From contig JAURDW010000009.1 of the NCBI GenBank assembly GCA_030827745.1, forward strand, positions 1-43,680: a stretch of DNA of 43,680 nucleotides, read 5' to 3'. The position numbers and the translations under genes were made by a program. Positions 13,007 to 39,786 of the stretch are shown piece after piece; positions within the stretch are counted from its first letter, which is position 1; every line of letters begins with the position of its first letter. The stretch is from Candidatus Poseidonia sp. (GTDB lineage Archaea > Thermoplasmatota > Poseidoniia > Poseidoniales > Poseidoniaceae). The notes beneath the pieces are model-generated. The model saw nothing but the letters and a program-made list of their open reading frames with translations, was not told the origin of the DNA and made no database searches.

Positions 13007-13914
13007 CGCCCGTCATGGCGACCCAACCAACTGCCGAGGTCGTCCAAGGACACCGCTGGGGGGTAAACGGACCCTTCGCCAGCATCAATGCGCCTGAGGA
13101 AAAAACGCCATTCCTCAAGCAAGGGCTCACCGTGAAAACGTTCAACCAAGGAGGTTTGGAGGTCTTTTTGCAAAGCAGAGATCGACAGCGTGTTGGCACC
13201 AAAATCGAGCGTGGCTTGTCTGTTTTTCCCCTCAACGACCACAGAACGAATTTCTTCATCGCTCTGCCAAGCCACATCAATGGAGGCGCTTTGGCCTTCA
13301 GTTGGGGCATCAAATGCAATGCGAGCGGAACGGTCGTCCACCTCAAAAAGAACGGTTTGAAGGGAGTTCAGAGGCTTGTCAAGCAACCACGAAGTCAAGT
13401 CCAAACCGTGAACGGCAAGAGTCGTCAGTGGCGTGGCCCCAGGGGGTTTGGCCCTTTGTGTTCGCCGAACATAACGAATGCCGTGAAGCGCTCCTAACAC
13501 GTCCTCTTCGAGCAGCGATTTGACCCGGTGCAAGCCGGGATGGTGACGAAGCAAGTAGCCCACGACCACCACCGCATCGGAGGGCAGGTTCGCCAAGGCA
13601 ATCGCAGACTCTTCATGGCGGTCGCTCAGGGGTTTCTCAAGCAACACCGGCAAACCGACCGCAAGGGCCTCCTTCAACAGTCCAAGGTGGGTAGCCGGTG
13701 GGGTTACGAGAGCAACGGCGTCAAGGCGTTCCTTAGCCATCATCAATGCGGCGTCGTGGTACACCGCATCGGCGTTCAAGTTGGCAGTAGCCTCTGGCTT
13801 GATGTCGCACACTGCGAGAAAGGAAACCAACCCTTCCTCTCGCAGCCTCTGAAGAGTTTGATAGTGGTTCAAACCCCAGCGCCCGCAGCCCACCAAGCCG
13901 ATTCTTTTGGCCAC
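13003..13914 (-). CDS. Gfo/Idh/MocA-family oxidoreductase
   Basis: Rossmann start RIGLVGCGRWGLNHYQTL; VTPPATHLGLLKEALAVGLPVLLEKPLS. Confidence 0.9.
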   Translation of the reverse strand: MAKRIGLVGCGRWGLNHYQTLQRLREEGLVSFLAVCDIKPEATANLNADAVYHDAALMMAKERLDAVALVTPPATHLGLLKEALAVGLPVLLEKPLSDRHEESAIALANLPSDAVVVVGYLLRHHPGLHRVKSLLEEDVLGALHGIRYVRRTQRAKPPGATPLTTLAVHGLDLTSWLLDKPLNSLQTVLFEVDDRSARIAFDAPTEGQSASIDVAWQSDEEIRSVVVEGKNRQATLDFGANTLSISALQKDLQTSLVERFHGEPLLEEWRFFLRRIDAGEGSVYPPAVSLDDLGSWLGRHDGR

Positions 13915-13923
13915 GGCCCCACC

Positions 13924-14862
13924 TCAACGGTACACCGAACGCAACCAGCGCCCGTCATCGCTTTGGTACCTCATGGCGTACTCGGGAGGGAGGTTTTCTA
14001 CCTCCCACTGCCACCATCCTTGGTCGTTGAAGCCCATGAGATCGTACACTTCTGGCGTACAGTGAACGCCGGTTTCGCCGAAATAGTGGGCGTGCGAAAC
14101 CCGGGTAGTGAGGCGATGCAGGCCGGCCATGTACATCGCCAACGAGGTGATGGCGTCTTGGCTCGTGGGAGCCGTACGCCAAGGAACGGTTGGAAAGGGA
14201 GTGTGAACGGCTTCTTGAGGAGGGTTCAGCGCCACGCCCTCGTGCCTTTTTCGACCTTTTTTCAGGCACCGTCGCATGAACCAGCGAATGCGGTAGTGTG
14301 GGCGTTGACCGTACGGGCGACCGTGGAGGTAACGTGCTTCGTAATCGTAGAGAACGGGTTTGATGATGTCCCAAACCCGTTTCGTCAAACAGTAAGTGAC
14401 GAAGTGGCGGTTGGTTAACTCCACCTCATGCAGGTGCGGGAGCAGCGCCGACCTGTCGCCCGGTTCAACATTCCACACTTGCACCGTCCCGACATCGCTG
14501 TAGGTTTCAGCCCAGTCCGAAAGCCGAAGCAGGGCCGTCAAGTAGGTAGGGCCAACCTCAATGTCGTCCTCAACCAACACCATTCGGTCAAACCCTTGGT
14601 CATCAAGCAACTCCCTCCGGGCGGAAATCAGTTGACGGCCCACGCCAAAATTATCGCTCCGAGCAACGATGGAGTTGAAAGGGACCCCGCTGGCCTGAAT
14701 CACCTCGCGAAGAGCGTCTTGCTCGCTGCCCACGCCGCCGTCGAGATAGTGGTAAAGTTCGACTTCACCGTTGAGGACCTCCGGACATTGTCCCAAGGCG
14801 CTGAGCATGCGTTTGAAATGGTCGGGGCGACCAAAACCAAAGGTCGCCACGGCGGTGCGCAT
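13924..14862 (-). CDS. GT-A fold glycosyltransferase (GNT-I/family 2-like)
   Basis: VATFGFGRPDHFKRMLSAL...; MVLVEDDIEVGPTYLTALLRLSDWAE resembles GNT-I-type EDD motif. Confidence 0.75.
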   Translation of the reverse strand: MRTAVATFGFGRPDHFKRMLSALGQCPEVLNGEVELYHYLDGGVGSEQDALREVIQASGVPFNSIVARSDNFGVGRQLISARRELLDDQGFDRMVLVEDDIEVGPTYLTALLRLSDWAETYSDVGTVQVWNVEPGDRSALLPHLHEVELTNRHFVTYCLTKRVWDIIKPVLYDYEARYLHGRPYGQRPHYRIRWFMRRCLKKGRKRHEGVALNPPQEAVHTPFPTVPWRTAPTSQDAITSLAMYMAGLHRLTTRVSHAHYFGETGVHCTPEVYDLMGFNDQGWWQWEVENLPPEYAMRYQSDDGRWLRSVYR

Positions 14863-14984
14863 GCCTCGCTGACACCGCGCTCTTTCATGAGCGTGATGCT
14901 CAACCGAGCGGCACCGGGCTCAAGACTTGAGCGAGGCGGCTCATGGAGCCCCCTCATGCATTATCCCGAGAAGGGTTTGGCCCT

Positions 14985-17294
14985 CTACGAAGACGTTTCC
15001 TTGGCCTCTTCACCGTCGGATTCAGCGTAAGCCACGTCATCTTCGTACACGTGGTCGTTGTATGGCGAAGAATACGCTATGGGCAGTCGAGCGGATTCGG
15101 TGAGCGTTGTGAGGTTGGTGGCGGTGATGCCTGCTGCCGATACTGCATAGACAAAGTCACCCATGAAAATTGAGCGACGGATGTTCCTGTCATCCCACCA
15201 TCGGTTTTCCCCGTCGGTGCTGTCGTACAGCGACGAATGGTTGACTTCGCCGTACACCTCAAGGGTCCCGGCCGTCTCGTTGACCTCCACCAAGACCAAT
15301 TTCGAGATGTACTGATACGACCAGTGGTACCGCCCGTTTTCGTAAGTATCCACGCTTCGGTACGTTGAGAGGGGAATGGCGAGCATGTTCTTTGGCCCCC
15401 AGTACTGGAAGGCTTTGGACTCGTACGTGGCCTCGGACCAGGACCAGGACCACATGCGGGCATTTTCACGGCTCACGGGCGATACTCGCAACGCGGCGTC
15501 TTGCGTGGGCGTTGTTGGGTCCGACACATCAAACAGCGAAATCTGGGTTCCGGACCAATCCAGGCCCGTGCCGTCCTCGTTGGCCGGAGAAAGGCCGATG
15601 GTCAGCAGATGATCGCGAGACAACGGGTGGATGTAAGTGGACACACCGGGAACTTTGAGCTCACCCAGAATCACAGGCTCCGTTGGGTCGGCCACATCGA
15701 TGACCCAAAGCGGGTCAATTTGCTCAAAGGTGACGATGTAGGCGCGGTCACCATCGTAACGAGCGCTCCAAATGCGTTCCCCTGGAGCAATGCCGTCCAC
15801 TCGGCCGGCCTCAATCAAGACTTGCTGGTCTGTTTCCACATCAACTGAGCGCACAAGGGTCACCAACTGCGACGACATCGGCTCGGGGTCGGTCAACCAC
15901 CACCGCCCCCACTGACCGGTGGTCGTGGCTACACGAAGCACCCCCTCGTGTTCGGAAAGGGCAAATTGGTTCACGACGGTGCCGTTCACGCGGCCCGAGC
16001 CCGTGTAGACGGTTTCATCAGGCAAACTGATGTCAAAGGTGTGGAGGTTTGTCATTTCGTTCAAGCCATCGTTGCCCCAAAACCACCACCAGTCAAAGGC
16101 GGCCTCGGCCAAGACAAGCACGTCGGTGGAGGCGTAGACTTGCGGGTAAGTTCCGACAACGTGGTCCACTTCGTATGCAAAGGAAGACGAGGTCAGGTCG
16201 AGAGAAAAGATGCTCGAAATGCCTCGGTTAAAACCGTCTTCGGGTGCCACGAATTCTTGGCAGGCGTTTTCACTCATCTCGTGAGTGGTGACCGTCCCGT
16301 AACTGTATTCGTAGACTTGCGGAATCAAGTCTTCCAAGGTCATGGACGCAAGAGCTTCGGCATTGGATTGCATGGTCTGCCAGGCCACTTTTTCTCGGAT
16401 TTCACGACGGAGCGGGTCGTCATAGTCAAGATTCCAATACCCGTTGGGCAAGTTCAACCATGACTGGAGGCCTTCAACATTCATCCATGCATGGGTGACG
16501 GTACGCACCGTTCCAGCGACTTCCCGTGCCGTGATGTAGTGGCCTTCGATGTACAGCTCCCGGTCAACTTCCGGCTGGCTTCGGTTGCTGATGTCCAACA
16601 CCGTAAATTTCGTGAGGCTGTTCGTTCGCCAGTTCCCGTAGGCTTCGTCCCAACCCATCGCATCCACCACGGGATGTGAGCGAGATATGCCCCATGGGTT
16701 GATGTTTGAAAGAACAACCAGTCGGTCGCCGTCGAGCATCATGGCCACCGGCGTTCCCGAGAGCGTAAGGGTGGATTCCGCTTCAAGGGACCCGAATTCG
16801 GGTACACCAAAGATGTGAAGGTTTTTGCCCTGGAGGTAGTAGATGTGGTAGCCATCCGTCTTTAGGAAATCCGCTTCATCGACGCCCGCTTCTTGGTTGT
16901 TGGTGCCGGAGAAATCTTCGCCCTCAACACGGTTGGGCGTGCTTCGGGGCGTGCTGGTCGGTGCGCCTGTGGTGGCGCTGGCATCGTCCATGGCCATCTC
17001 TGCGCCGTCCTCGAGCCAAACACCGCCGCCGTGGAAGTACGTTTCTTCAACGGCCTGCAGGAGTTGGGTACGGTATTCTTCCTCGAGGGAGCGCTTCAGT
17101 TGACGTTCGAGGTCTTCGCAGTCATCGTATGCGTGCAGTTGAGGGCTTGAAACCGACCGAGATGCCGTCGTCGACCAGTCGTCGGGGAGGACCACATCGG
17201 GGACGTCTACATCGCCCTCGTAGGACAGGCACCCCGACATCAACATCGTCAAGACCAAGCCAAGAGCGCTTGCTTGCTTTCGGTTCATGCCCAA
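14985..17294 (-). CDS. Secreted lipoprotein with C-terminal beta-propeller domain (COG4880-like)
   Basis: Lipobox-like LGLVLTMLMSGCLS; NNQEAGVDEADFLKTDGYHIYYLQG and WSARYDGDRAYIVTFEQIDPLWVIDVADPTEP are typical of this family. Confidence 0.88.
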   Translation of the reverse strand: MGMNRKQASALGLVLTMLMSGCLSYEGDVDVPDVVLPDDWSTTASRSVSSPQLHAYDDCEDLERQLKRSLEEEYRTQLLQAVEETYFHGGGVWLEDGAEMAMDDASATTGAPTSTPRSTPNRVEGEDFSGTNNQEAGVDEADFLKTDGYHIYYLQGKNLHIFGVPEFGSLEAESTLTLSGTPVAMMLDGDRLVVLSNINPWGISRSHPVVDAMGWDEAYGNWRTNSLTKFTVLDISNRSQPEVDRELYIEGHYITAREVAGTVRTVTHAWMNVEGLQSWLNLPNGYWNLDYDDPLRREIREKVAWQTMQSNAEALASMTLEDLIPQVYEYSYGTVTTHEMSENACQEFVAPEDGFNRGISSIFSLDLTSSSFAYEVDHVVGTYPQVYASTDVLVLAEAAFDWWWFWGNDGLNEMTNLHTFDISLPDETVYTGSGRVNGTVVNQFALSEHEGVLRVATTTGQWGRWWLTDPEPMSSQLVTLVRSVDVETDQQVLIEAGRVDGIAPGERIWSARYDGDRAYIVTFEQIDPLWVIDVADPTEPVILGELKVPGVSTYIHPLSRDHLLTIGLSPANEDGTGLDWSGTQISLFDVSDPTTPTQDAALRVSPVSRENARMWSWSWSEATYESKAFQYWGPKNMLAIPLSTYRSVDTYENGRYHWSYQYISKLVLVEVNETAGTLEVYGEVNHSSLYDSTDGENRWWDDRNIRRSIFMGDFVYAVSAAGITATNLTTLTESARLPIAYSSPYNDHVYEDDVAYAESDGEEAKETSS

Positions 17295-19383: not shown

Positions 19384-20784
19384 TTAAGCAAAGAGTTGGT
19401 CCAACAGCCACGTGGGTTGGAATTGCAGAAGGTCACCGTATTCTTGGCCAATGCCGGCAAACACAATTGGGCGGCCGGTCGCAAAGGCAATCGAGAGGCC
19501 GGCACCGCCTTTCGCGTCGGTGTCCATCTTCGTCAGCACGGCCCCGTCAAACCGCATGATGTCCTGGAACATCTTCGCTTGCTCAACAGCGTCGTTGCCT
19601 GCCAGCGAATCGCCAACGAACAGGGTGAGGTGCGGGTTGGTCACCTTGCGAACTTTGTTCAGTTCGTTCATCAAGTTGGTTTTGTTTTGCATCCTCCCAG
19701 CAGTATCGACCAGGACCACGTCAATTCCCTTGGCCTTCGCAGATTCAATCGCATCGCGAGCGATAGCGGCGGAGTCGCCGCCACGCTGGCTGGAGATGCA
19801 ACGAATTCCGAGGCGGTCGCAATGAGATTCCAGTTGTTGAATGGCTCCGGCGCGGAAGGTGTCGCCTGCTGCGGCGATGACGGAATGCCCGTTGTTGAGC
19901 AATCGGTGGGCGATTTTCGCCGCCGTGGTCGTCTTTCCGGTTCCGTTCACGCCCACCAGCATGATGACAACGGGGACGTCTCCGCTGTCAAGGAAGCCCT
20001 TGACGGTGGCATCAAAATCCCAGTAACCGGCCTCCAAGAGGCCGTGAAGCGCTCGCTTGAGCGCTGCTTCCAACACCTTGGAAAGTTCGGCTCCTTTTCG
20101 GAGGCGAGCGCCGACCAAGGCGGAGCGCAAACTGTCAATGATGGCGTTCGTGGCGTGATGCGAGATGTCGGATTCAAGCAACACCCATTCAAGTTCCTCG
20201 AGCAGGTTTTCCAAGGCTTCACCGGCCTTGATGATGCGTCCGCCTTCAGCGACCACACCACCACCGAGGTCCACGTTGATGCTGGAGCCAACCTCGGTCT
20301 GAATGGATGTGGACTGAGTTCCGCCTCGCGGAGCATGCTGAACCTCGACCAATTGCCTGCCCGTTGTCGTTCGCATCATAGCAAGGTCCACGCGGGAGCC
20401 TTCGGGCCGAGCCACTTCGACGCCACCGCGTTTTTTCATCGCCTTGGCTGCTGTGGCTGCTTTTCGTTCCTCGTCGCGTTTTTGTCGCTCCATCCGTTTC
20501 CGTTCTTTCTTTGAGAGATGGAGAGGGGCGGTGGGTTCATCGTCGTCCCACGTGTCCCATTCATCCTCGGCCGAAGCATGTGACGTCGAAGGCGGGTGTT
20601 CCGTGGACGGAGTATCGTCCACGGCGTCGACATCGTCCCAATCCTCATCAGGAACCGTGCCGGGCGTGGCGGTGGCGAGGTGGTTCTTGGCCTCCTCGGA
20701 GTCGGCTTCCACCGAAAGGGAGTCCCCGTCGGTTTCGTTTGCAACCTCGTGGATTCGTTTGCGGAAGCGGTCAAACAATCCCAT
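19384..20784 (-). CDS. ftsY: Signal recognition particle receptor FtsY
   Basis: VGVNGTGKTTTAAKIAHRL, DTFRAGAIQQLE, VLVDTAGRMQNKTNLMNELNKV, LTKMDTDAKGGAGLSIAFATGRPIVFAGIGQEYGDLLQF. Confidence 0.97.
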   Translation of the reverse strand: MGLFDRFRKRIHEVANETDGDSLSVEADSEEAKNHLATATPGTVPDEDWDDVDAVDDTPSTEHPPSTSHASAEDEWDTWDDDEPTAPLHLSKKERKRMERQKRDEERKAATAAKAMKKRGGVEVARPEGSRVDLAMMRTTTGRQLVEVQHAPRGGTQSTSIQTEVGSSINVDLGGGVVAEGGRIIKAGEALENLLEELEWVLLESDISHHATNAIIDSLRSALVGARLRKGAELSKVLEAALKRALHGLLEAGYWDFDATVKGFLDSGDVPVVIMLVGVNGTGKTTTAAKIAHRLLNNGHSVIAAAGDTFRAGAIQQLESHCDRLGIRCISSQRGGDSAAIARDAIESAKAKGIDVVLVDTAGRMQNKTNLMNELNKVRKVTNPHLTLFVGDSLAGNDAVEQAKMFQDIMRFDGAVLTKMDTDAKGGAGLSIAFATGRPIVFAGIGQEYGDLLQFQPTWLLDQLFA

Positions 20785-21886: not shown

Positions 21887-24800
21887 ATGCGGGCTGAATG
21901 GATGGTGCTGTTGCTCCTCCTTCCCTTGGCCTCGGGCTTGCAAACGCCGGGAACGCCCCACGCGCCCCCCTTGCCTGTGGTCTCGGGCCACGAGCGACTT
22001 CTCGTGCTCGATGAGGGGGTCTGGACCTCAGCCGACTGGCAAAACCTCTTGAAGAAGGGCGTTCAACCGTTGCGTTCTGTTTCACCTGAGGCGTTGCTGG
22101 TTTGGCAAGAAGGTCAAGTGGATTGGGGCGATAACGTCGCCGTTCTCCCGTTCAACGATGTCGCCTACCTCCAACCGCTCCATCCCCAACAAGATGGCCA
22201 CGGGGCTGTCCGAGTTGTGTTTGAGCCTCGGCTGCCCCAACCTGCGGTGGACCGCATCAACGAACGTCTCTCGGCAATGGCTTCCGTCCCACCAACGGCC
22301 AGCGAAGGCGTTGCCTCCTTGCCTGCATCGTCGGTTATCGATTTGGTGAATCCTTGGTCGGTCACCGACCTTCTCGACCTCGAAGGGGTTCTTTGGGTTG
22401 AACCGGTGCTCACACCATCCGCACGGAACGGTCAAGCGTCCGGCCTCATTCAAGCAGGAGCGTTGGATTCGGAGCCGTTTTGGAGCGTGGGACTGAACGG
22501 CCAAGGCGTGGTGCTGGGGGTCGCTGATAGCGGTCTTGATGCCGACCACGCCTGTTTTCGAAACGCCTCCACGGCCACTGGACCTCACTCAGAACCTTCG
22601 GCAACGTACCCCGCCGTGGGGGTCTTTGGCGAAAGCCATCGCAAAATTCTCCACCTCAACACCTCCATCGACGGCAACGATACGCCGGGTCATAGCGATT
22701 ACCGGCACGGTACGCATGTGATTGGTTCCTTGGGGTGTTATGACGTGGAAGCTCATCGCAACGCCGACTTCCCGGCCAACGGCTCAACCGTCGCCTACGG
22801 GACAAAATTGGTCGTGCAAGACATCGTCTCGGAGGACGGGTGGTTGCCGCCTTCTGTGGACGAGTTGTTGTGGGAAGCGTCTTCTTACGGGGCCGTGATT
22901 CACTCCAACTCGTGGGGCGATGACACCACGGCCTACACGCAGCGAACGGGCACGTTTGATGCGTATGCTCGAGCCATGCCTTGGTCCGTTGCGGTCATCG
23001 CCCCAGGCAACAGCGGGGAAGGGGTTCTTGAACCTGCGAACGGTCGTAATGTGGTCGCTGTAGGTGCCAGCACCAAAGCGTCTGAACCGGAACGATGGTC
23101 AAGCTCGTCTTACGGCCCTACCGAAGCAGGAACGGACGGTGTGTTTGTTCTCGCGCCGGGAGCCTCCATCATGTCTGCAGGGGGTGACGGTTTCTGGTCA
23201 ACGAACAACAACAACCTGCGCCCTTCGTCCGGGACAAGCATGGCCACGCCACTCGCTTCGTCCGCAATGGGCATCCTGCAGCAAATGTACGAAGACGGTT
23301 GGCTTCACGGTGCTCATGAACCCCTGGCATCGGTGACGATGGAGCGACCTGCTTGGTCGTCTGCCACGGTACCGGACAATGTTCTGCTGGGTGAGGGTTT
23401 TACGCCGTCGGGCCCACTTCTACGGGCCACCCTCGCTCTTGCGACGCATCCTCTGAGCGACGTTGAGCGAAACGGAGGAGAGGGGGGCGATATCCTCCAC
23501 AACCCCTACGACGGCTGGGGTGTCACGAATCTTTCTCGCCTCATCGATATCTCGGCGTTGGAAAACGGTACGTCGCCCTCCTCTTCGTTGTGGGTCCACG
23601 ACAGTTACCGTCTGGACAAGGGGGGCGTTTCACCGTGGTTCCAAGACCACGCAAGCGAAGCAAACAACCTCACGGGATTCGCCAACACCTCGTGGGACGG
23701 CGCGGGTGCTTCGGGTCCGTTTCTTCAGACCGGCGATGTGTTTGAACAGCGCTTTTCCCCCCTCTCCAACCGGTCTGTCCGCTTGCGATTGGCCTTTCCA
23801 GCCCAACCCGAACCCGCTCTGGTGGACGATCTGCAGTTGCGTGTGGTGCTCGAGGACGGGCGCGTGCTGCTTGCCGACCGATTGAATGCCTTGGGAGAGC
23901 CCGTGAAATACAATGCCACCGTGGCGGATTTCAACGATTTCGATGTTTTTCCCAATTCAAACGAGACCGTGGTGGGCCTTGATGTCCCGGCCCACTACTT
24001 GGCCAACGCTTCTTGGTTTGATGTTCAGGTGGTCGCGCGCTACGTTCAACCGGGCGGCGTTCAAGGAAGCGTTGGCTTGGACGGGGACGCTACGGGGTTC
24101 AGCCTGGTGGTTCAAGGTGTTGAACGGGATGCCACCGACCATCTTGACGGGGACGGAGACGGCGTGGCCAACTTCAACGACCGTTGTCCATTTGAGGACG
24201 CTTCGGCAGCCGATGCCGACCGAGACGGGTGTTTGGACGATGGCGACGGTGATGGTGTCGTCGACCCCGTGGACGAATGTCCTTCCATCAACGCCTCTGA
24301 ACACGATGCAGACCTCGACGGTTGCTTGGACGACAGCGACGGCGACGGTGTAACGGATGATGTGGATGCGTGCTTCACCCAAGACATTGCGTGGCCGGTC
24401 ACCGCCACAGGGTGCTATCCAGTTGATGTTCCCCCCTCACTCAACGTGCACCTTGCCCCCTTGAACAACTCCACGCTGGTCGATACGGTGCAGATTGAAT
24501 GGTCCCTTGAAGATGCAGACGGAGACAACGCCAACGTCAGCATCAGCCTCGTGTTTTCTGGACAGTCTACCCCCCCGTTAGCAAGCTGTTCAGGCACCGT
24601 TCTCGTCTCGGAGATTCAATCCTGCGAATGGGAGATTCCTGCCGATCTTGCACCGTACTTCATCGCAGGGGCCACCTATGACATCATCGCAAGCGTTGAG
24701 ACTGGCAACCGATCACCCGCATCAGCAACGGGCGACCGAATCTTGGTTCTTGTGAGCGGTGTCGCCCTTCCCGAAAAGGCCGACGCAACTTCAGAAATGT

Positions 24801-24985
24801 CGGAGGCTGAAGTTGGGCAATCGGCGGTCTTTATCGCCCTCTTTGGCCTTCTGCTGGGCGCCCTCGTGGCGCGCTGGAACCGCTCTCGCTCCCGAGTCAA
24901 CGACCACTTGGAGATTGCGGCTCCGTTCCGAGAGCGACATGAAAACGAGGTCCCGGTGGCTTTGGATGAAGAATCGCCTTCTTGA
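21887..24985 (+). CDS. Secreted/cell-surface subtilisin-like (S8) protease with TSP3-type Ca-binding repeats and C-terminal TM
   Basis: Triad motifs LGVADSGLDADH, HGTHVIGSLGC, SGTSMATPLAS; DGDGDGVANFNDRCPFEDAS repeats; TM FIALFGLLLGALVARWNRSRSR; N-terminal signal peptide. Confidence 0.95.
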   Translation: MRAEWMVLLLLLPLASGLQTPGTPHAPPLPVVSGHERLLVLDEGVWTSADWQNLLKKGVQPLRSVSPEALLVWQEGQVDWGDNVAVLPFNDVAYLQPLHPQQDGHGAVRVVFEPRLPQPAVDRINERLSAMASVPPTASEGVASLPASSVIDLVNPWSVTDLLDLEGVLWVEPVLTPSARNGQASGLIQAGALDSEPFWSVGLNGQGVVLGVADSGLDADHACFRNASTATGPHSEPSATYPAVGVFGESHRKILHLNTSIDGNDTPGHSDYRHGTHVIGSLGCYDVEAHRNADFPANGSTVAYGTKLVVQDIVSEDGWLPPSVDELLWEASSYGAVIHSNSWGDDTTAYTQRTGTFDAYARAMPWSVAVIAPGNSGEGVLEPANGRNVVAVGASTKASEPERWSSSSYGPTEAGTDGVFVLAPGASIMSAGGDGFWSTNNNNLRPSSGTSMATPLASSAMGILQQMYEDGWLHGAHEPLASVTMERPAWSSATVPDNVLLGEGFTPSGPLLRATLALATHPLSDVERNGGEGGDILHNPYDGWGVTNLSRLIDISALENGTSPSSSLWVHDSYRLDKGGVSPWFQDHASEANNLTGFANTSWDGAGASGPFLQTGDVFEQRFSPLSNRSVRLRLAFPAQPEPALVDDLQLRVVLEDGRVLLADRLNALGEPVKYNATVADFNDFDVFPNSNETVVGLDVPAHYLANASWFDVQVVARYVQPGGVQGSVGLDGDATGFSLVVQGVERDATDHLDGDGDGVANFNDRCPFEDASAADADRDGCLDDGDGDGVVDPVDECPSINASEHDADLDGCLDDSDGDGVTDDVDACFTQDIAWPVTATGCYPVDVPPSLNVHLAPLNNSTLVDTVQIEWSLEDADGDNANVSISLVFSGQSTPPLASCSGTVLVSEIQSCEWEIPADLAPYFIAGATYDIIASVETGNRSPASATGDRILVLVSGVALPEKADATSEMSEAEVGQSAVFIALFGLLLGALVARWNRSRSRVNDHLEIAAPFRERHENEVPVALDEESPS

Positions 24986-25094: not shown

Positions 25095-26099
25095 ATGAGC
25101 GACCGCCTGTATGTTGGAATTGACCTAGGAACCTACCAATCAACCATCGCCTCGAGCGCTGGAAAATTGCACACCATCGAAACCGTCGTTGGACGCCCAA
25201 AGGACCCCGTGGCCCGGAACTTCCTCGGCCGTGACGTGCTGTTTGGTGACGATGCGCTCAAGAACAAACTTGCATGCAACCTTTACCGACCCATGGCCGC
25301 AGGCGTCACCCAAGACGATGAAGCGAACCTAGCAGCAGCCAAGGCCTTCGTTTCCCACCTCCTTGAAACCGTTGACCCCGAAGAGTTTGATGAGGTCCTC
25401 GGCGTCATCTGTTCGCCCAGCCACGTTTCGTTCACGGACAAATCCAACCTTGTAGCAACACTCCGCGGCCAGGTGAACGCCATCATGGTCGTGACCGAGC
25501 CCTTCGCTACCGGCTACGGGATTGACCAGCACATGGGTTCGATTGTGGTTGACATCGGGGCAGGGACCACCGACATCGCTCGCCTCTACGGAACCTTCCC
25601 CACTGACGAGGACCAGGTGACCATCACCGAAGCCGGGGACTGGTTGGACAACGAACTCATGACCCTCATCAAGAAGAAGTACACCGGCGCTCAAGTGACC
25701 AAAGACATGGTCCGCAAGTGGAAAGAAGCCTCCTCTTACATCGGGAGCGAAACCCGGGAAGTCACGGTTGACCTCTCTGTGGAAGGAAAGCGTCAAGTCG
25801 TCGATATTGGAGATTTGATTCTTGAAGCCTGCGAACTCATCGTACCGAAGATTGGAAACGCGATCAAGAAGATCGTCGCAGGCGCTGACCCTGAGTACCA
25901 ACAACTCTTGCGCAACAACATCATCCTCTCTGGCGGAGGCTCCCTCATTGAAGGCGTTGCTGAGCGCATTGCCAAGGAAATTTCCGACATCGGTGACGTC
26001 AAGGTTTGGTGTGTTGAGGACCCCATCAACTCGGTGGCAGCAGGCGCGCTCAAACTCGCCAGCGAAATGCCAGACGACATGTACACCGCCATCAACTGA
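25095..26099 (+). CDS. MamK/MreB-type bacterial-like actin
   Basis: Phosphate-1 GIDLGTYQSTIAS, VVGRPKD, TEPFATGYGID, phosphate-2 IVVDIGAGTTDIA, DEDQVTITEAGDWLD, adenosine motif ILSGGGSLIEGV. Confidence 0.88.
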   Translation: MSDRLYVGIDLGTYQSTIASSAGKLHTIETVVGRPKDPVARNFLGRDVLFGDDALKNKLACNLYRPMAAGVTQDDEANLAAAKAFVSHLLETVDPEEFDEVLGVICSPSHVSFTDKSNLVATLRGQVNAIMVVTEPFATGYGIDQHMGSIVVDIGAGTTDIARLYGTFPTDEDQVTITEAGDWLDNELMTLIKKKYTGAQVTKDMVRKWKEASSYIGSETREVTVDLSVEGKRQVVDIGDLILEACELIVPKIGNAIKKIVAGADPEYQQLLRNNIILSGGGSLIEGVAERIAKEISDIGDVKVWCVEDPINSVAAGALKLASEMPDDMYTAIN

Positions 26100-26179
26100 A
26101 ACGGCGGCGAATCCGGGGTGTGAAATACGCCCTGTGAACCCGATGCCGTGCGGGAAGGTTCAAGTGTGGTAAATCTGCG

Positions 26180-27460
26180 ATGCGTTGCCGTATGGCCGTA
26201 GAGAGTTCTTCACCCGGTGGTATCCGACGCGTCGGAAGCACAACCAACGACGAGCGAGCGGCGCTTGAAGGGATGCTCAAAGGCTACCCCGTCGAACAAC
26301 TGGTCGATGAGGTCTTGGTGGCTTGGGATGAATTGGGCAAGCGCAACGACGAACTTGTCACCGTGAAGCAACGGCTACGCGTGGTCGAACTCGACCTCGC
26401 CGAACGTCATGACAACGTCGCCCCAGAAATCGCTCGTCTCGCCGAGGCAGAGCAGACGTTGAAGGCCAACGATGCAAAAATTATCCACCTTGAACGGATG
26501 CTGGAAGACACCAAAACCGAACTGGCAGCCCAGCAATCTTCGCTTTCCCAGGAAGAGCGGACCTCCATGGAGACCGAAGTGTCCCAGCTTCGAGAACTCA
26601 CCGCGCAACAAGACGATGTGATCGGTGAATTGGAAGGACGGATGGCACAAATGGTCACGGCACTGGAGAAGGCTGCCGATGCAGGATTGACTTCGGTCAC
26701 TGCTGAGGAAGTTCGTTTGCTCAAGCAACAGGTCGATGAACGTCAACGGCAACTCGACGTGGAGCGCGCCGCAGCAGAAGCACTGGAAGAAGAGCGGCAA
26801 CGCCTCCGTGACATCGCCGACCGTCTTCGGGGCTTGTTGGACGCCCGTGATCGCCGCCTCGGAGAATTGGAAGAACAGCTCGAGCGCGTGATGCAAGGCC
26901 CTCGCTCTGTTTCGGCAGAACACGATTACCTTGTGGAACAAATCGAAGAACTCAAACGCCGCCTGTTGGAAAGAAATCGCGAATACGAATCGCTCCGTCG
27001 CCGAGAACGTCGCCTGCACAACGATGTCTTTGAGCGCGACGAACGCTTGCAACAAATGACCCTCACCATGACCGATTTGGAAGCCGCCCTCCAGGACCGA
27101 ACCGCCGAACTTCGGGAACTTGAGGAGCGACGCAGTTCTATGGAGCATGAACTCCAATCCGCCCGACGCAGCGAACGTACCCGAGAAGTCGTGGGCCGCG
27201 TCTTTGCGGATTCGCTCTCGTTGGTGCGAAGTCACGAAAGCCGCGAACTGAAACGGGAACTCTACGCCAACGCTCCCGATGTAGAACGCACCATCAAAGC
27301 GCCCTCCGCTGACGACATGACGAAACTCGCTGAAGGCGAGGAAGTGGCGCTGTCCACCGAAGAAACCGTGATTGAGAAGGGCATGGAAGTTGACGATGTT
27401 CGCCCGCCATCCCCAGGTGGAAGCGGCGACCCCGTTTTGTTTGACGACGAGACAGAGTGA
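26180..27460 (+). CDS. Long coiled-coil protein
   Basis: 426 aa, continuous Glu/Arg/Leu heptad-like sequence from ~aa 45 to ~345, then acidic tail; start may be 26195 (MAVESS...). Confidence 0.85.
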   Translation: MRCRMAVESSSPGGIRRVGSTTNDERAALEGMLKGYPVEQLVDEVLVAWDELGKRNDELVTVKQRLRVVELDLAERHDNVAPEIARLAEAEQTLKANDAKIIHLERMLEDTKTELAAQQSSLSQEERTSMETEVSQLRELTAQQDDVIGELEGRMAQMVTALEKAADAGLTSVTAEEVRLLKQQVDERQRQLDVERAAAEALEEERQRLRDIADRLRGLLDARDRRLGELEEQLERVMQGPRSVSAEHDYLVEQIEELKRRLLERNREYESLRRRERRLHNDVFERDERLQQMTLTMTDLEAALQDRTAELRELEERRSSMEHELQSARRSERTREVVGRVFADSLSLVRSHESRELKRELYANAPDVERTIKAPSADDMTKLAEGEEVALSTEETVIEKGMEVDDVRPPSPGGSGDPVLFDDETE

Positions 27461-27461
27461 G

Positions 27462-28322
27462 TCATTCTGTGCAAGCAGAGATCAACGAGGTCAACCGCCC
27501 TCGGAGTTCTTCGATAGAGCCCGCATCCTCCGTGACCGTACCGGTAACAACCCACCTCGCACCTGCTTCAACGGCCGAGCGAACGGCTTCCGGTGTCCTC
27601 AATCCACCTCCGACCAGGAGGGTCAAGCCTTCAACATCCGCTGCAGCACGAATCAAATCCGTGTGAACAGGCGTGGACGCCCCGCTCCCTGCTTCCAAAT
27701 AGAGCAACGAGAAACCGAACATTTTCGCACACAGAGCATACGAACGAGCAAGTTCGGTATCGCTTGGCTGGAGAAGTTCAGCCCCGCCAACTTCCCCTAC
27801 ACGCCCGCCTGGCGCACACACAACGTACCCTGTCGGCAAGGCTTCCACCTCAAAGCGTTCAAGATACGGAGCGCCGCGGACTTGTTCGCCAACCAAGAAC
27901 TCCCTCTTGGTTGAGTTCATGAGCATCATGAACGTGATGGCGTCCGCAGCCGGCGATAAGGCATGAGCGCCCCCCGGGAAGAGCACAACGGGAACATCCC
28001 ATAGGGTCTCATCACCTTCAGGGTCTTGACTTGCTGCGAACATCCGAAGTTCAAGCGCCTCCTGAATGGCCACACAGGTGGCATGAACCACGGTATCGGG
28101 CGTATCGGTTGACCCGCCAACAAAAATCATCGATGAACCGCATTCCACCGCCACCATGCTGCGTTGTGCGGCGACCTCGGGTGTCTGCTTGGCCGGGTCG
28201 ATGAGCGTGATGTGCCCTGCTCCATTTCGTTGCCTGCAGACTTTGGAAAGCACCGAACCTTCACCGACATTCATGGGACTCGGTTGGAGGTTGATGAGGA
28301 AAGGGCATAGGGCTTGCGCCAC
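27462..28322 (-). CDS. Geranylgeranylglyceryl phosphate synthase
   Basis: HITLIDPAKQTPE, FVGGSTDTPD, VVLFPGGAHALSPAADAITFMMLMNS, LYLEAGSGAS, LLVGGGLRTPEAVRSAVEAGARWVVTGT; internal start at 28274 possible. Confidence 0.93.
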   Translation of the reverse strand: MAQALCPFLINLQPSPMNVGEGSVLSKVCRQRNGAGHITLIDPAKQTPEVAAQRSMVAVECGSSMIFVGGSTDTPDTVVHATCVAIQEALELRMFAASQDPEGDETLWDVPVVLFPGGAHALSPAADAITFMMLMNSTKREFLVGEQVRGAPYLERFEVEALPTGYVVCAPGGRVGEVGGAELLQPSDTELARSYALCAKMFGFSLLYLEAGSGASTPVHTDLIRAAADVEGLTLLVGGGLRTPEAVRSAVEAGARWVVTGTVTEDAGSIEELRGRLTSLISACTE

Positions 28323-32884: not shown

Positions 32885-33733
32885 TCAGCCTCGATGGGTC
32901 GCCTTCACATGGTCAACGGCGTTCCGAAAAATCTGCAGGCCCTCCCCTTCCCACCCGTCGAGTGCTTCGCCAGAAGGCTGCGATGACGGGTGCGTGTGGT
33001 TGGGGTGAAGCCAGCGAGCATACACCGCCTCTGGATGGGGCATTAAGCCGAACACGAGCCCGGTGCTGTCGCAAATACCTGCAATGTTTCGCATGCTCCC
33101 GTTCGGGCTGGTGGGATAGGGCAGGACCGTTTCATTGGCTCTACCCCCGAGGTTTGTGGACGGGTCAACATAGCGGACCGTTACTTGGTGGTTGGCTTCA
33201 AGGCGGTCCAAGTCGCTGGCGGTTGGCATGACGAATTTTCCTTCGCCGTGACGCACCGGACATTCCATTCTCGTCATTCCCTTGGTCCATATGCAGGGGC
33301 TTTCGGGATCAAATTCGAGCGTCACCCATCGATCTTCGTAGCGCCCGCTGTCGTTCAAAGTCAGGCTGGCACGCTGAATGAAGTCCGGAGATTCGCCAGC
33401 ATCTGGGCCCGGAAGGAGACCGGTTTTCACCAACACCTGAAATCCGTTGCAAATGCCGATGATGGGTTTGCCAGCATCAACAAAGGAGCGCAACGCATCT
33501 CGCATGGCGAACCGCATCCGATTGCCAAGAAGACGCCCGCTGCCAAGGTGGTCACCAAACGAAAACCCGCCGGGGACAGCGAGAATGTCGTACGTATCTA
33601 GCGAGACATCGCCGGTCACAAAGCGGTTCACGTGAACCCGTTCCGCGGTCGCGCCGACGAGTTCAAACACGGCTTTGGTTTCGTGATCGCAGTTGATGCC
33701 AAAACCGAACAGAACGGCCACATGAGGGGTCAT
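32885..33733 (-). CDS. purQ: FGAM synthase glutaminase subunit
   Basis: VAVLFGFGINCDHETKAVFELVGA, AVPGGFSFGDHLGSGR, GICNGFQVLVKTGLLPG, LMPHPEAV; ATG at 33733 overlaps the purL TGA (TGATG). Confidence 0.95.
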   Translation of the reverse strand: MTPHVAVLFGFGINCDHETKAVFELVGATAERVHVNRFVTGDVSLDTYDILAVPGGFSFGDHLGSGRLLGNRMRFAMRDALRSFVDAGKPIIGICNGFQVLVKTGLLPGPDAGESPDFIQRASLTLNDSGRYEDRWVTLEFDPESPCIWTKGMTRMECPVRHGEGKFVMPTASDLDRLEANHQVTVRYVDPSTNLGGRANETVLPYPTSPNGSMRNIAGICDSTGLVFGLMPHPEAVYARWLHPNHTHPSSQPSGEALDGWEGEGLQIFRNAVDHVKATHRG

Positions 33734-36700
33734 CAGACAACACCCCCGGTCAAGTCCAATGTCCCCTTCCACGCTTCGACCAGGGCTTCAACCGGGGAGC
33801 GAAGGAGTTCTTCGTCACCGTCCAAAACCAGCAAGTCGTCGGTACCGTTGACCGTGCCGAGGACGGTGAGCGGATGGCCTTTCATCGCCGAACAGAACGC
33901 TGTCTCGTCTGCGGGAGCAACGGCCACCACGATGCGGCCCAGCGACTCGCCCCAAAGTCGTCCCCAAAGGTCGCTCGGGCCGGTGCCGTCGATGTCAATT
34001 TCAGCCCCAAGGCGTCCGCCAATGCACATTTCGGCCAATGCCACGGCAAGCCCGCCCTCGCTGCAGTCGTGAGCGGTTCGCACGAGGCCTTCTCGGATGG
34101 TTGATGCCAAGGCCCGATAGGTGGAAAGCTGCGCTTCGGGCCGCTCCAACCGTGGAACGTTGCCGCCAATGCCGTTCGCGGCCCCGGCTTCGGTCATCAT
34201 AAAGGCCAATTCTGATGCTCCGAGTTCGTTGTGGGAGGTGCCGACCAGGTAAATCCGGTCGCCGGCTTGTTTGAAATCGCTCGTGGCGGTGAAACGAACA
34301 TCGGGGTGGTCGCCAAAGAGGGAAAAGAGAAGTGTTGGAGGAATGGAAATCTTGTCCGGCCCGGTTCCATAATCGTTCTTCATGGAATCCTTTCCGCTAA
34401 CGCAAGGCAGGCGATACGCACGGCACACACGCTCCAATTCTCGGTTGGCCCTCACGAGTTGGGCAAGTTTGAACCGGCCGTCAGGTGTTTTGCTGGATTC
34501 GATGGGGTCTGGCCAACAAAAATTATCCAATCCAGCCATTTTGTCAACGTCAAGACCGACGCAAACCGCATTGCGGACCGCTTCGTCAATGGCTGCTGCG
34601 GCCATGGCTCCAGCGTCGATGTCCGCATACCTCGGGGCGATGCCACATGAGATGACGAGACCGTGGGGGTTGCCGTGGATGGGAGCGATGAGCCCGGCAT
34701 CGCCCGGTCCGTCACGCTCAACGCCAACAAAGGGTTTCACGGCAGTTTGGGCAATGACTTCGTGGTCGTATTGGCGCACCCATGTCTCCTTGCTGGCGAT
34801 GTTGGGTCGCTGCAGCATTTCCAGCAGCAGCTGGTTGTGGTTTGCGTCGCTTGGGGGCGAGAACGATGGGTGCTGGGGCGGAGCCCACGCCGATTCAAGT
34901 TCAAGTTGGGGGACCCCGTCATGAAGGAATTCAATGGGCAAATAGGCCACCGTGGTTTCGTTGTACCGAACATGGAAAACGCCGGTGGAGGTGAACGTTG
35001 CAACAGGTGTCGCCTCAACCTCGTGCAAGCGAGCAAGGTGTTCGAAAGCGGGCTGGTCTTCGGGGCGGACAGCGATGGTCATGCGTTCTTGGCTCTCTGA
35101 AACCAAGATTTCCCATGGGGAGAGCCCCGCCTGCTTCAACGGTACGCTGGCGAGGTCAATCTCGCACCCGTTCGTGTATTCTGCCATTTCCCCGATGGAC
35201 GAGGAAAGCCCCCCCGCACCGTTGTCGGTGATGCATGAAATCAAGCCAGCATCTCTGGCCTCAAGGACCATATCGACCATCTTCTTTTGGGTGATGGGAT
35301 CGCCAATTTGAACAGCACTTGAGGGCGATTCTTCGGTGAGTTCAAGCGAGGAGAACGTCGCACCATGAATGCCGTCGTAACCTACACGGCCACCCACCAT
35401 ATAGACGATGTCGCCTGCAACGGGCGTCTTCACATGGGATGGCCGCCCGTCGGCAAGGGTTCGAGGCATGATGCCCACGGTACCGCAGTAGACGAGGGGT
35501 TTGCCGATGTAACGGTCATCGAAAACGATGGCTCCGTTGACCGTAGGAATCCCCGATTCGTTGCCTCCAACGCGCACACCGGCATGAACGCCCCGTAACA
35601 CTCTGGAAGGATGGAACAGGTTGTCAGGCAAATCCCCCTCCCAGTCGGGCGGGCCAAAGCAAAACACGTCCGTGTTCGCAATAGGGCGAGCCCCCAGACC
35701 GGTTCCCAAAATATCCCGGTTGACGCCTACAATCCCGGTCATCGCACCGCCGTACGGGTCCAAGGCCGAAGGGGAATTGTGCGTTTCAGCCTTCATACAG
35801 ACGCTCCACTCATCGTCCCATGCGATCACGCCGGAGTTGTCGTGAAACACCGACAGGAGCCAGTCAACTTCGGTTTGCATGTCGTGCGTTGGCTTCATGA
35901 TGTGAGTTTTGAACAGGGAATCTATGACCGAGTCTTCGCCCGTTTCTTCATCAATATGATGAATTTTTGATGCAAAAATCTTGTGCTTGCAATGCTCACT
36001 CCATGTTTGAGCAAGACATTCCAGTTCAACGTCGGTGGGTGCATCGGGAGAAATGCCGACGGCTTCTCGAACAGCCCGAGTGGTTGCATCTCGATAGTGC
36101 GCTTGGATGGCATGCATTTCAGCCAAATTAAGCGCCAGCAACCCCTGGGTCGAAATGGATTCAAGTTCCTCATCCGCCACCTCAAGATCAACCGCTTGGG
36201 GCTCAATGAAGACCTGCTCGGGGGGCGTTGGATAGTCAAGTTGAGGCCACGCACGCGCCGTGCAGTCCTGGGCCGAGCCCACCACGGCTCGCTCGATCAA
36301 CCCGTTGTGAAGGGTGTTCGCCAGCCAATGCAGATCGCACCCCTCGGGCAAGCCATAGAAGGCGTAAGTGATGTAGGTGGAAATTCGAGCGTTTTGGTCG
36401 TCGGGGAACAACGTGAGAAAGCCGTCCGTGGCCGCTTTGCCCGGGTTGTCGGTCACACCGGGTTTGAACCCGACCGAAACGACGCCTTCGGGAACGCTTT
36501 CGAAGTGGGCCGAAGAAAGCAGCAATTCGTTGGTTGCACCGTGTTCGATGATGGGGTCTGCAAACACGTCGGCAACCCGGAGAGCAATGGCTTCCGCAGG
36601 GGTTTCAGCATCGATGAGATAGCCACAAATCGTGCGAACACGTTCAACTTCAATGCCGTGGTCGGCGTTGAGCTGGCGGCGGACCACATCGCCGCGGACA

Positions 36701-36762
36701 TCGCGCATTCCTTCCCCTTGTCGAGGCGTCACTTCCACGCGTGTGATTGGCATACGGTGCAC
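33733..36762 (-). CDS. purL: FGAM synthase PurL with N-terminal tandem PurS-like domains
   Basis: [65 protein letters not shown]-like [19 protein letters not shown]; N-terminal ~165 aa resemble two PurS units. Confidence 0.95.
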   Translation of the reverse strand: [1009 protein letters not shown]

Positions 36763-36816: not shown

Positions 36817-39786
36817 TCATTTGTTTAGCATCTTGGCGAGGAAATGCCCGGTTGGGCTGGACGGGGATGCGGCAATTTCCTCAGGAGTGCCCGTAGCGAT
36901 GATTTGCCCACCACGCTCGCCCCCCTCTGGGCCCAAGTCGATGACCCAGTCGCAGGATTTGACCACATCGAGCTGATGTTCGATGATGACCAGCGTGTGA
37001 CCTTTGTCGCGAAGTTGGTGGAGCACCTGAATCAATTTCGCCACGTCGCTCAACGAAAGGCCGGTCGTGGGCTCGTCAAGAATGTAGACCGTGTGTTTGT
37101 TCGGCATCCTTCGCAATTCGCTGGCGAGTTTGACACGTTGCGCTTCTCCCCCCGAAAGCGTCGTGGCGGGTTGCCCTAACCGGATATAACCGAGGCCGAC
37201 TGCATCCAGAGTTTCGAGCGTTCGATGAATTTTTCGGTGGTTTTTGAAGAATTCAACGGCGTCTGCGACGGGCATCTCAAGAACATCGTGGATGTTACGC
37301 CCTTTCCACAACACTTCGAGGCATTCTCGGGTGTATCGCTTTCCATCGCAAATATCGCAAGTGATCCACACATCGGGCAGGAAGTTCATTTCCAATTTGA
37401 TTGAACCCCCTCCGGAACACGCTTCGCACCGTCCGCCTTTGACGTTGAAACTGAATTGGCCGGGTTTGTATCCCCGCTCTTTCGCCAATTTCGTATCGGC
37501 GAACAAACTGCGAATTTCATCGAAAACTTTGGTGTAGGTGGCCGGATTGGACCGGGGCGTTCGCCCGATGGGTGACTGGTCAATGATGATGGTCTTGTCC
37601 ACGTGTTCAACGCCCTCAATGCTTGAGTGGCGGCCTGGAACCGTTTCGGCACGATGAACCGCCCTCTGCAAGGCAGGAGCAAGGATCCCGGAGACGAGGG
37701 ATGATTTTCCCGAGCCTGAAACGCCGGTGACGGCCGTCATGCACCCGAGAGGGAATGCGGCGGTGACGTTTTGCAGGTTGTTGTGGCGGGCCCCCTTCAC
37801 AACGAGGTGTTTTTTCTTGGGTTTTACCCGTTGTTCGGGCCAAGGTATGCTCTTCCGCCCGCTCAAGTAGGCGCCCGTGACCGAGGCTTCAACCTTCATG
37901 ACCTCTTCTGGGGTTCCGTTGGCGACGATTTCGCCTCCTTCAAGCCCAGCACCCGGTCCCAAATCGCACAACCAATCGGCCTGGCGCAAGGTGTCTTCGT
38001 CGTGTTCGACGACCAACAAGGTGTTGCCTAAATCGCTCAATTCACGGAGGGTCTTCAACAGGCGGTCGTTGTCGCGCTGATGCAAACCGATGGAAGGTTC
38101 GTCGAGCACGTACATCACGCCGGTGAGGCGGCTCCCGATTTGGGTCGCCAAACGAATGCGTTGACTTTCACCGCCTGAAAGGGTGTTCGCCTTTCGGTCG
38201 AGGGTTAAGTAATCCAGACCAACGCTGTCCAGGAAGCCAAGTCGACCTTCGATTTCCTTGATGATTTCATGACCGATGAACTGGCTTCGGTCGTCAAGGG
38301 TTTCCAACACGTCTTCAAAGGCTTCGGGCGGGCCTTCGCCCTCTGGGAACCAAGCACGAACCAACCCCAGGGCGTCGTGCACAGAACAGCGACTCACTTC
38401 GGGCAAGCGAACGCCTCCGACAGTAACATAGCGAGCGGCACGGTTCAGTTTTTCACCGGAACATTCGGAGCAGTCGAGGTCCGTCATGCAGCCAATAAGG
38501 CGGTTTCGTGTGCGTTCTGAAGTGGTCTCTGCGTAGGTCTTCTCAAGGCGAGGGACGATGCCCTCCCAAGGTTTGCTGTACTTGTATTGGGAGCCGTTTT
38601 CTGATACAAATTCAAAGTGAATCACCGTTGACCCCGAGCCGTACAGCAAGATGTCTTTCTCGTCTTCCTCCAACATGTCAAAGGGCAAGGTGGTGGAGAT
38701 GTTGTAGTGTTCGCATGTGCACTCCAACAGTTTTCGGTACCATGAGGGCGACATGGATTGCCTCCAAGGCAGCACACAGCCGTTCGAGACGCTCAGGCTA
38801 CCGTCAACGATGAGTTCGGTGTTGAATTGGCGCTGCACACCGAGACCCTGGCAGGTCCCGCAGGCGCCCAAAGGAGAATTGAACGAAAACACCCTCGGGG
38901 AAAGTTCGGGCATGAAAGCTCCGTGCTCAGGGCATGCGAAATCTTCGGACCAAGCGATGGTTTGCCCCTGTTCGGTAGCGAGAGCGTTTGAATTTGGACT
39001 CAGTTCCGTCCCTTCTTTTGGTGCTTCGAGGCTTTCAACGGCCAAGGTGCCTCCCCCGAGGCGCAAAGCGGATTCGACCGCTTCGGTCATGCGCTGCCTT
39101 CGGTCACGGGTGCATCGTAATCGGTCGATACGGACGTCGATGTCGTGCCTGAAATTTTTATCGAGCGTGGGCGGTTCCTCAAAGGAAGTTTCGTGACCGT
39201 TGACGCGCCCGTTGAGGTAGCCCTGCTCGACCAATTGCCTGAAGAGTTCTGCATGGGTGCCCTTCCGGGCCCTTACAACCGGGCTCCAGACAGCCACTGC
39301 ATGGCCTTCCATTTGCCAGAAAACGTCGTCAACGATTTCCTGCACGGTTCGGCGAGCCACTTCTCGGCCGCATGAAGGACAGTGGGGTTTGCCGACGCGA
39401 GCCCAAAGAAGCCGGAGGTAATCCTGGATTTCCGTTACGGTGGCCACGGTTGATCGGGGGTTGTGGCTGCCTTGCTTTTGGTCGATGGAAATGGCTGGTG
39501 AAAGGCCCTCAATGGAATCGCAATCCGCCTTTTTCATTTGCCCGATGAACTGTCGGGCGTACGAAGAAAGGCTCTCCACATACCGCCGTTGCCCTTCTGC
39601 GTACAAGGTGTCGAAGGCAAGGCTGGATTTCCCGGACCCTGAAACCCCTGAGATGACAACGAATTTGCCTTTTGGAAGGTTGACGGTGATGTCTTTGAGG
39701 TTGTGGGTTCGAGCCCCTTTGACCTCAATCCAACCCTCCTGCTGAGCGTGATGCAAAGTGGGACCTCCGTGTTTTCCAACCGCCAA
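36817..39786 (-). CDS. uvrA: Excinuclease ABC subunit A
   Basis: IEVKGARTHNLKDITVNLPKGKFVVISGVSGSGKSSLAFDTLYAEGQRRYVESLSSYARQF; zinc motif CEACSGGGSIKLEMNFLPDVWITCDIC; two ABC signatures. Confidence 0.98.
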   Translation of the reverse strand: MAVGKHGGPTLHHAQQEGWIEVKGARTHNLKDITVNLPKGKFVVISGVSGSGKSSLAFDTLYAEGQRRYVESLSSYARQFIGQMKKADCDSIEGLSPAISIDQKQGSHNPRSTVATVTEIQDYLRLLWARVGKPHCPSCGREVARRTVQEIVDDVFWQMEGHAVAVWSPVVRARKGTHAELFRQLVEQGYLNGRVNGHETSFEEPPTLDKNFRHDIDVRIDRLRCTRDRRQRMTEAVESALRLGGGTLAVESLEAPKEGTELSPNSNALATEQGQTIAWSEDFACPEHGAFMPELSPRVFSFNSPLGACGTCQGLGVQRQFNTELIVDGSLSVSNGCVLPWRQSMSPSWYRKLLECTCEHYNISTTLPFDMLEEDEKDILLYGSGSTVIHFEFVSENGSQYKYSKPWEGIVPRLEKTYAETTSERTRNRLIGCMTDLDCSECSGEKLNRAARYVTVGGVRLPEVSRCSVHDALGLVRAWFPEGEGPPEAFEDVLETLDDRSQFIGHEIIKEIEGRLGFLDSVGLDYLTLDRKANTLSGGESQRIRLATQIGSRLTGVMYVLDEPSIGLHQRDNDRLLKTLRELSDLGNTLLVVEHDEDTLRQADWLCDLGPGAGLEGGEIVANGTPEEVMKVEASVTGAYLSGRKSIPWPEQRVKPKKKHLVVKGARHNNLQNVTAAFPLGCMTAVTGVSGSGKSSLVSGILAPALQRAVHRAETVPGRHSSIEGVEHVDKTIIIDQSPIGRTPRSNPATYTKVFDEIRSLFADTKLAKERGYKPGQFSFNVKGGRCEACSGGGSIKLEMNFLPDVWITCDICDGKRYTRECLEVLWKGRNIHDVLEMPVADAVEFFKNHRKIHRTLETLDAVGLGYIRLGQPATTLSGGEAQRVKLASELRRMPNKHTVYILDEPTTGLSLSDVAKLIQVLHQLRDKGHTLVIIEHQLDVVKSCDWVIDLGPEGGERGGQIIATGTPEEIAASPSSPTGHFLAKMLNK

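Follow-up and report, generated by a model that had tools for sequence, protein, structure and literature searches.

The window, i.e. the whole 43,680-nucleotide stretch of DNA analysed here, is part of contig C117, in an assembly of 1.74 Mb from a member of Poseidoniales. The named organisms nearest to it are Poseidonia and further Euryarchaeota of Marine Group II (MGII), an uncultured group to which it belongs and which has been reported to outnumber all other planktonic archaea in surface waters (PMC6461757). Three genes follow one another on its forward strand: a membrane-anchored extracellular subtilase of family S8 (21887..24985), with a C-terminal transmembrane segment and a short tail; a MamK-like actin-fold ATPase of 334 aa (25095..26099), termed here actin A; and a coiled-coil protein of 426 aa with an acidic tail (CC, 26180..27460), whose start lies 80 bp past the actin A stop. 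To the left is the SRP receptor gene ftsY (19384..20784, reverse strand) and to the right the gene for geranylgeranylglyceryl-phosphate synthase of the PcrB family (GGGPS; 27462..28322, reverse strand), an archaeal marker; both are placed outside the system, and they and the subtilase were assigned by Pfam and synteny. Other neighbours in the window are an ABC transporter, a rhodopsin and two adjoining reverse-strand open reading frames (ORFs) of ~1000 aa each (33733-36762 and 36817-39786). The rhodopsin and the GGGPS, like the names borne by close relatives, speak for an archaeal origin.

Judged from its sequence, ORF 25095-26099 encodes an actin-fold ATPase that is intact, and the nucleotide motifs GIDLGTYQSTIAS, VVDIGAGTTDIA and ILSGGGSLIEGV listed for it in the initial annotation are all present. 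Against NCBIfam profiles actin A scores 345 bits for MamK, 212 for BeeR, 85 for MreB, 34 for salactin and 19 for ParM, the MamK score far exceeding these others and that for FtsA, whilst the general Actin Pfam model gives 57 bits and the best PDB match is MamK (5jyg, 228 bits); the kinship to MamK put forward in the initial annotation therefore holds. Hsp70, FtsA and PilM, judged from profiles only, score far lower than MamK. The AlphaFold2 monomer model (pLDDT 89) agrees best with the MamK subunit in its filament state (5ljv; TM 0.93, 1.6 Å) and fits BeeR less closely. Residues E143 and D161 of MamK, mutation of which reportedly abolishes ATPase activity, correspond to E135 and D153 in actin A and to E136 and D154 in a second paralog, actin B, described below; the 14 A and 12 B sequences taken into the tree all have this catalytic pair.

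This kinship does not extend to membership of the MamK family proper, and the original description of a MamK/MreB-type actin is to be narrowed in that respect: the scores of actin A (345 bits) and actin B (363 bits) lie below the curated NCBIfam cut-off of 400 bits (NF040964), which no Poseidoniales protein reaches in the 390 genomes of the phylum, the only one to pass (435 bits) coming from G129. Actin A likewise lies outside the neighbouring families. It scores 212 bits against a BeeR cut-off of 530 (NF053558), is without the N-terminal extension and falls outside the BeeR clade; for MreB it scores 85 bits against 293 (NF010539) and again falls outside the clade; and for salactin actins A and B score 34 and 60 bits, respectively, against 400 (NF053533). 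In a tree of 50 proteins, MreB is set apart, at 100/100 support, from a group that holds MamK, BeeR and the proteins of Poseidoniales, so that actin A does not sit inside ordinary MreB, an outcome on which the initial annotation had made its reading depend. The actin A and actin B clades are each fully supported in this tree, their grouping with one another has support of 66/26, and a grouping of A, B and the G129 protein is not rejected (p 0.49). The position matching MamK A278, at which an A278D mutant has been described as non-polymerising (PDB 5ljw), is occupied by D, E or N in B proteins; because MamK-like proteins of Desulfamplus and an Omnitrophota bacterium carry D, E or N as well, no inference was drawn from it.

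The initial annotation recognised actin A as a single actin; that gene stands, but it is not the only one, as the same genome encodes actin B, a second MamK-like paralog of 341 aa, on contig C25. Actin B and the zinc-ribbon protein adjoining it are found at L047:11221-12246 and L048:3296-4306. In all 13 loci compared actin B comes after this ~336-aa zinc-ribbon protein, and the two occur in an identical set of 35 of the 59 related genomes that make up our comparison set, whilst the genes for actins A and B are unlinked. The C-terminal part of the zinc-ribbon protein gives a weak TerB match; its model is of low confidence (pLDDT 64), with no convincing fold match.

CC was first described as mostly coiled coil with an acidic tail and as beginning ~80 bp beyond the actin, a description that is borne out: by a simple heptad index devised for this analysis a share of 0.50 of the protein rates as coiled coil, compared with 0.15 for shuffled sequences, and its last 66 residues carry a net charge of -13. 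It also weakly matches SMC coiled coils in NCBIfam. Across 13 homologs conservation peaks at residues 26-75, at 151-175 and most strongly at 226-300 (26855..27079, forward strand), where the consensus is GPRSxSAEHDYLVEQIEELKRRLLERNREYEaLRRRERRLH.DVFERDER. Because this last block is best conserved where the actin is present and is missing in actin-less relatives, it is the best candidate for an actin-binding site.

The heptad index and co-occurrence mark CC as a candidate partner of actin A. The 38 of the 59 genomes that have actin A are precisely those that have a full-length-type CC, in some cases cut off by the end of a contig, and in 37 of them the two genes adjoin, the exception being G033 (genus g5), where CC is separated from actin A; the conservation of the gene pair, to which the initial annotation had looked as a check, is thus observed. 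Both actins have been lost in one clade of Thalassarchaeaceae (this family and Poseidoniaceae being named here from the names of close relatives). At the syntenic site, read in eight actin-less genomes of that family, the subtilase and actin A are absent and a coiled-coil gene of 140-166 aa is still there (L177:9125-9592, L178:8693-9187 and L183:8416-8916 in actin-less MGIIb genomes), adjoining c25 in all eight and also GGGPS, except on one short contig, L180. The short protein aligns to residues ~5-165 of CC and has the same end point (161-171) in every one of the eight, the sole part left in actin-less relatives corresponding to residues ~6-165 in the window (26195..26674, forward strand). 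That this short CC is kept in actin-less MGIIb genomes indicates that the N-terminal part probably has a role that does not require actin.

The actin-less genomes in the sample fall into a single clade when a tree is built from FtsY and GGGPS, and the co-loss and CC trimming were therefore counted as one event, which may have taken place amid genome shrinkage in which other genes were perhaps lost too. The pattern is suggestive of a link between actin and CC, not proof of it. One further apparent absence, in G038, was set aside: its contig breaks off within the S8 gene, immediately ahead of where the actin would lie, and the genome clusters with G042, which has actins, so that its lack of actins is probably an assembly gap.

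An actin pair, together with a CC that is trimmed where the actins are lost, suggests an undescribed internal skeleton. On balance we think it probable that the locus encodes a MamK-type filament with CC as its dedicated adaptor, which with a second, actin B system would constitute a shape or positioning scaffold for non-magnetic cargo. Actin A would most likely bind ATP and polymerise into a two-stranded filament in the MGII cytoplasm, and CC, the product of the next gene, would be its dedicated partner, the central block (226-300) binding the filament and the N-terminal part (30-165) binding another cell component that persists without it; the latter part would bind something other than actin because it is kept once actin is lost. 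Actin B and its zinc-ribbon companion would join actin A and CC in this scaffold, which would be analogous to that of MamK and Mad28 with the coiled-coil Mad proteins, but with non-magnetic cargo. A more far-reaching version, which we offer tentatively, is that MGII possess an undescribed two-filament cytoskeleton of actins A and B, with CC and the zinc-ribbon protein as lineage-specific adaptors, that positions some cell structure, and that this cytoskeleton was dismantled in one Thalassarchaeaceae clade, where the adaptor lost its filament-binding half.

Comparison with known systems bears on which of these functions is the more plausible. The likeness of the Poseidoniales actins to MamK is whole-length (345-363 bits) and includes the conserved E143 and D161 and, for the actin A model, the TM of 0.93 to the filament subunit; they differ in scoring below the cut-off, in being archaeal, in having a coiled-coil partner of their own and in being without nearby mam genes or MamA. 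None of the former was seen among the genes flanking either actin, and MamA is absent (profile score 47.5 bits against a cut-off of 200), in keeping with the original caution that magnetosome function is not implied. MamK itself forms a double-helical, non-staggered, ATP-dependent filament, and actin A is known from a monomer model only, which fits the filament conformation. In deep-branching magnetotactic bacteria, magnetosomes are organised by interacting proteins, namely MamK, Mad28 and the coiled-coil Mad proteins (PMC12748827), and these systems (PMC12748827, PMC12713370) resemble the present one in having two actin-like proteins and coiled-coil partners per genome; unlike them, Poseidoniales have no magnetosome genes and their paralogs are unlinked, and CC is likened to the Mad proteins by coiled-coil character alone. 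MamK and Mad28 act together with coiled-coil partners, and given the kinship of the present actins to MamK we would favour positioning over shape.

BeeR of Verrucomicrobiota (PDB 8r2n) offers a precedent for a MamK-related actin outside magnetotactic organisms, from which actin A differs in its score (212 bits), in its position outside the BeeR clade and in lacking both the N-terminal extension and the 12-residue insert of BeeR. Salactin, from haloarchaea, is an archaeal actin for which MamK has been reported as the nearest relative (PMC10746226); the Poseidoniales actins match its profile with just 34-60 bits and, by these profile scores, stand much nearer to MamK than they do to salactin. 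No description of a cytoskeletal actin of MGII was found in the literature searched, which lay mostly outside subscription journals. An archaeal MamK-type filament outside magnetotactic bacteria bears on the origin of organelle-positioning actin systems, and from the clade in which both actins were lost naturally and the partner was shortened, the filament-binding part of CC can be predicted directly.

That the system is instead a determinant of cell shape, with membrane-bound actin A filaments guiding envelope growth like MreB or crenactin and the arcadins, and CC as an intermediate-filament-like scaffold, seems to us unlikely. Crenactin belongs to the eukaryotic-actin side. Its system resembles ours in that an archaeal actin gene is clustered with an SMC-like gene, that of arcadin-4; for crenactin a part in shape upkeep has been proposed (PMC5173319). 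No arcadin-like neighbour was identified beside actin A. A role in shape would agree with a chromosomal actin A conserved across all Poseidoniaceae and with the membrane protease that adjoins the actin A-CC pair. However, similarity to MreB is much weaker than that to MamK, a scan of the flanking genes identified none for cell-wall synthesis, and an entire MGII clade lives without the actins. An essential role of the actins in division is argued against by the tubulin-family genes, which are present in 59/59 genomes, actin-bearing or actin-less, so that division appears independent of the actins. The Poseidoniales tubulins (genomes G000-G058) are usually two FtsZ-like proteins and a weaker third family member.

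The place of the subtilase requires separate consideration, as S8 immediately precedes actin A at all A loci compared, including that of G033 from which CC has moved away. The order of S8 and actin A has even fewer exceptions than that of actin A and CC, and CC may therefore not be the sole partner; S8, which is included in the conserved gene block, may act as cargo of the filament or as its anchor, its role in the system being uncertain. One could go further and regard S8 and actin A as the conserved unit, the filament positioning or clustering a surface protease for polymer degradation with CC as a bystander or secondary adaptor; the absence of S8 from the syntenic site in actin-less relatives also speaks for this reading. 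We consider this distinctly improbable: the cytoplasmic tail, which we rejected as an actin anchor, is short and poorly conserved, S8 diverges far more quickly than the genes around it (73% identity against 97% for actin A), synteny extends to the neighbouring genes in any case, and the truncation points toward CC. The subtilase also bears aspartate-rich DxDxDG calcium-type repeats. Assemblies of genus g10 break within its gene, and in G055, from a genus otherwise actin-less, an S8 gene lies on a 3.7-kb contig (L194:1-1636), as contamination or a remnant.

A system positioning the archaellum or a type IV pilus is a very improbable reading of the same genes. ArlJ-like genes occur in nearly all actin-bearing Poseidoniaceae genomes and T2SF/pilus-like matches track actin-bearing genera, but ArlJ (NF004704) does not strictly track the actins, since g12 and G042 have actins but no ArlJ and g9 has ArlJ but no actins, and the pilus-like matches are distributed along the species tree and are not independent; PF04659 has no match in any of the 59 relatives. 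Actin-fold filaments commonly segregate DNA, and CC has its SMC matches, but a ParM-like filament segregating chromosome or plasmid is hardly to be credited, given that any coiled coil gives such matches, that the ParM score is only 19 bits, that no DNA-binding adaptor gene was identified among the flanking genes scanned and that the actin A genes are core chromosomal, with FtsY and GGGPS on either side, a location that speaks against plasmid partition.

Within the 390 genomes of the phylum, MamK-like actins are found throughout Poseidoniaceae and, in Thalassarchaeaceae, in genera g12, g14, g21 and part of g10. In other classes a match to MamK this strong occurs in one genome only, G129, of another Thermoplasmatota family, where the actin of 435 bits is followed by a charged, probably helical protein of 618 aa (L093:12128-13225 and 13423-15279). 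From reading of the translations, its contig presumably also carries archaeal RNA polymerase and Kae1-like genes. As this assembly is 7% contaminated and the sole one of its order in the sample, the G129 actin is treated as a lead; its long charged neighbour fails the heptad index and showed no homology to CC. MamK-like proteins also occur in Acidobacteria, Planctomycetota and one further bacterium (L101, L102, L103, L107).
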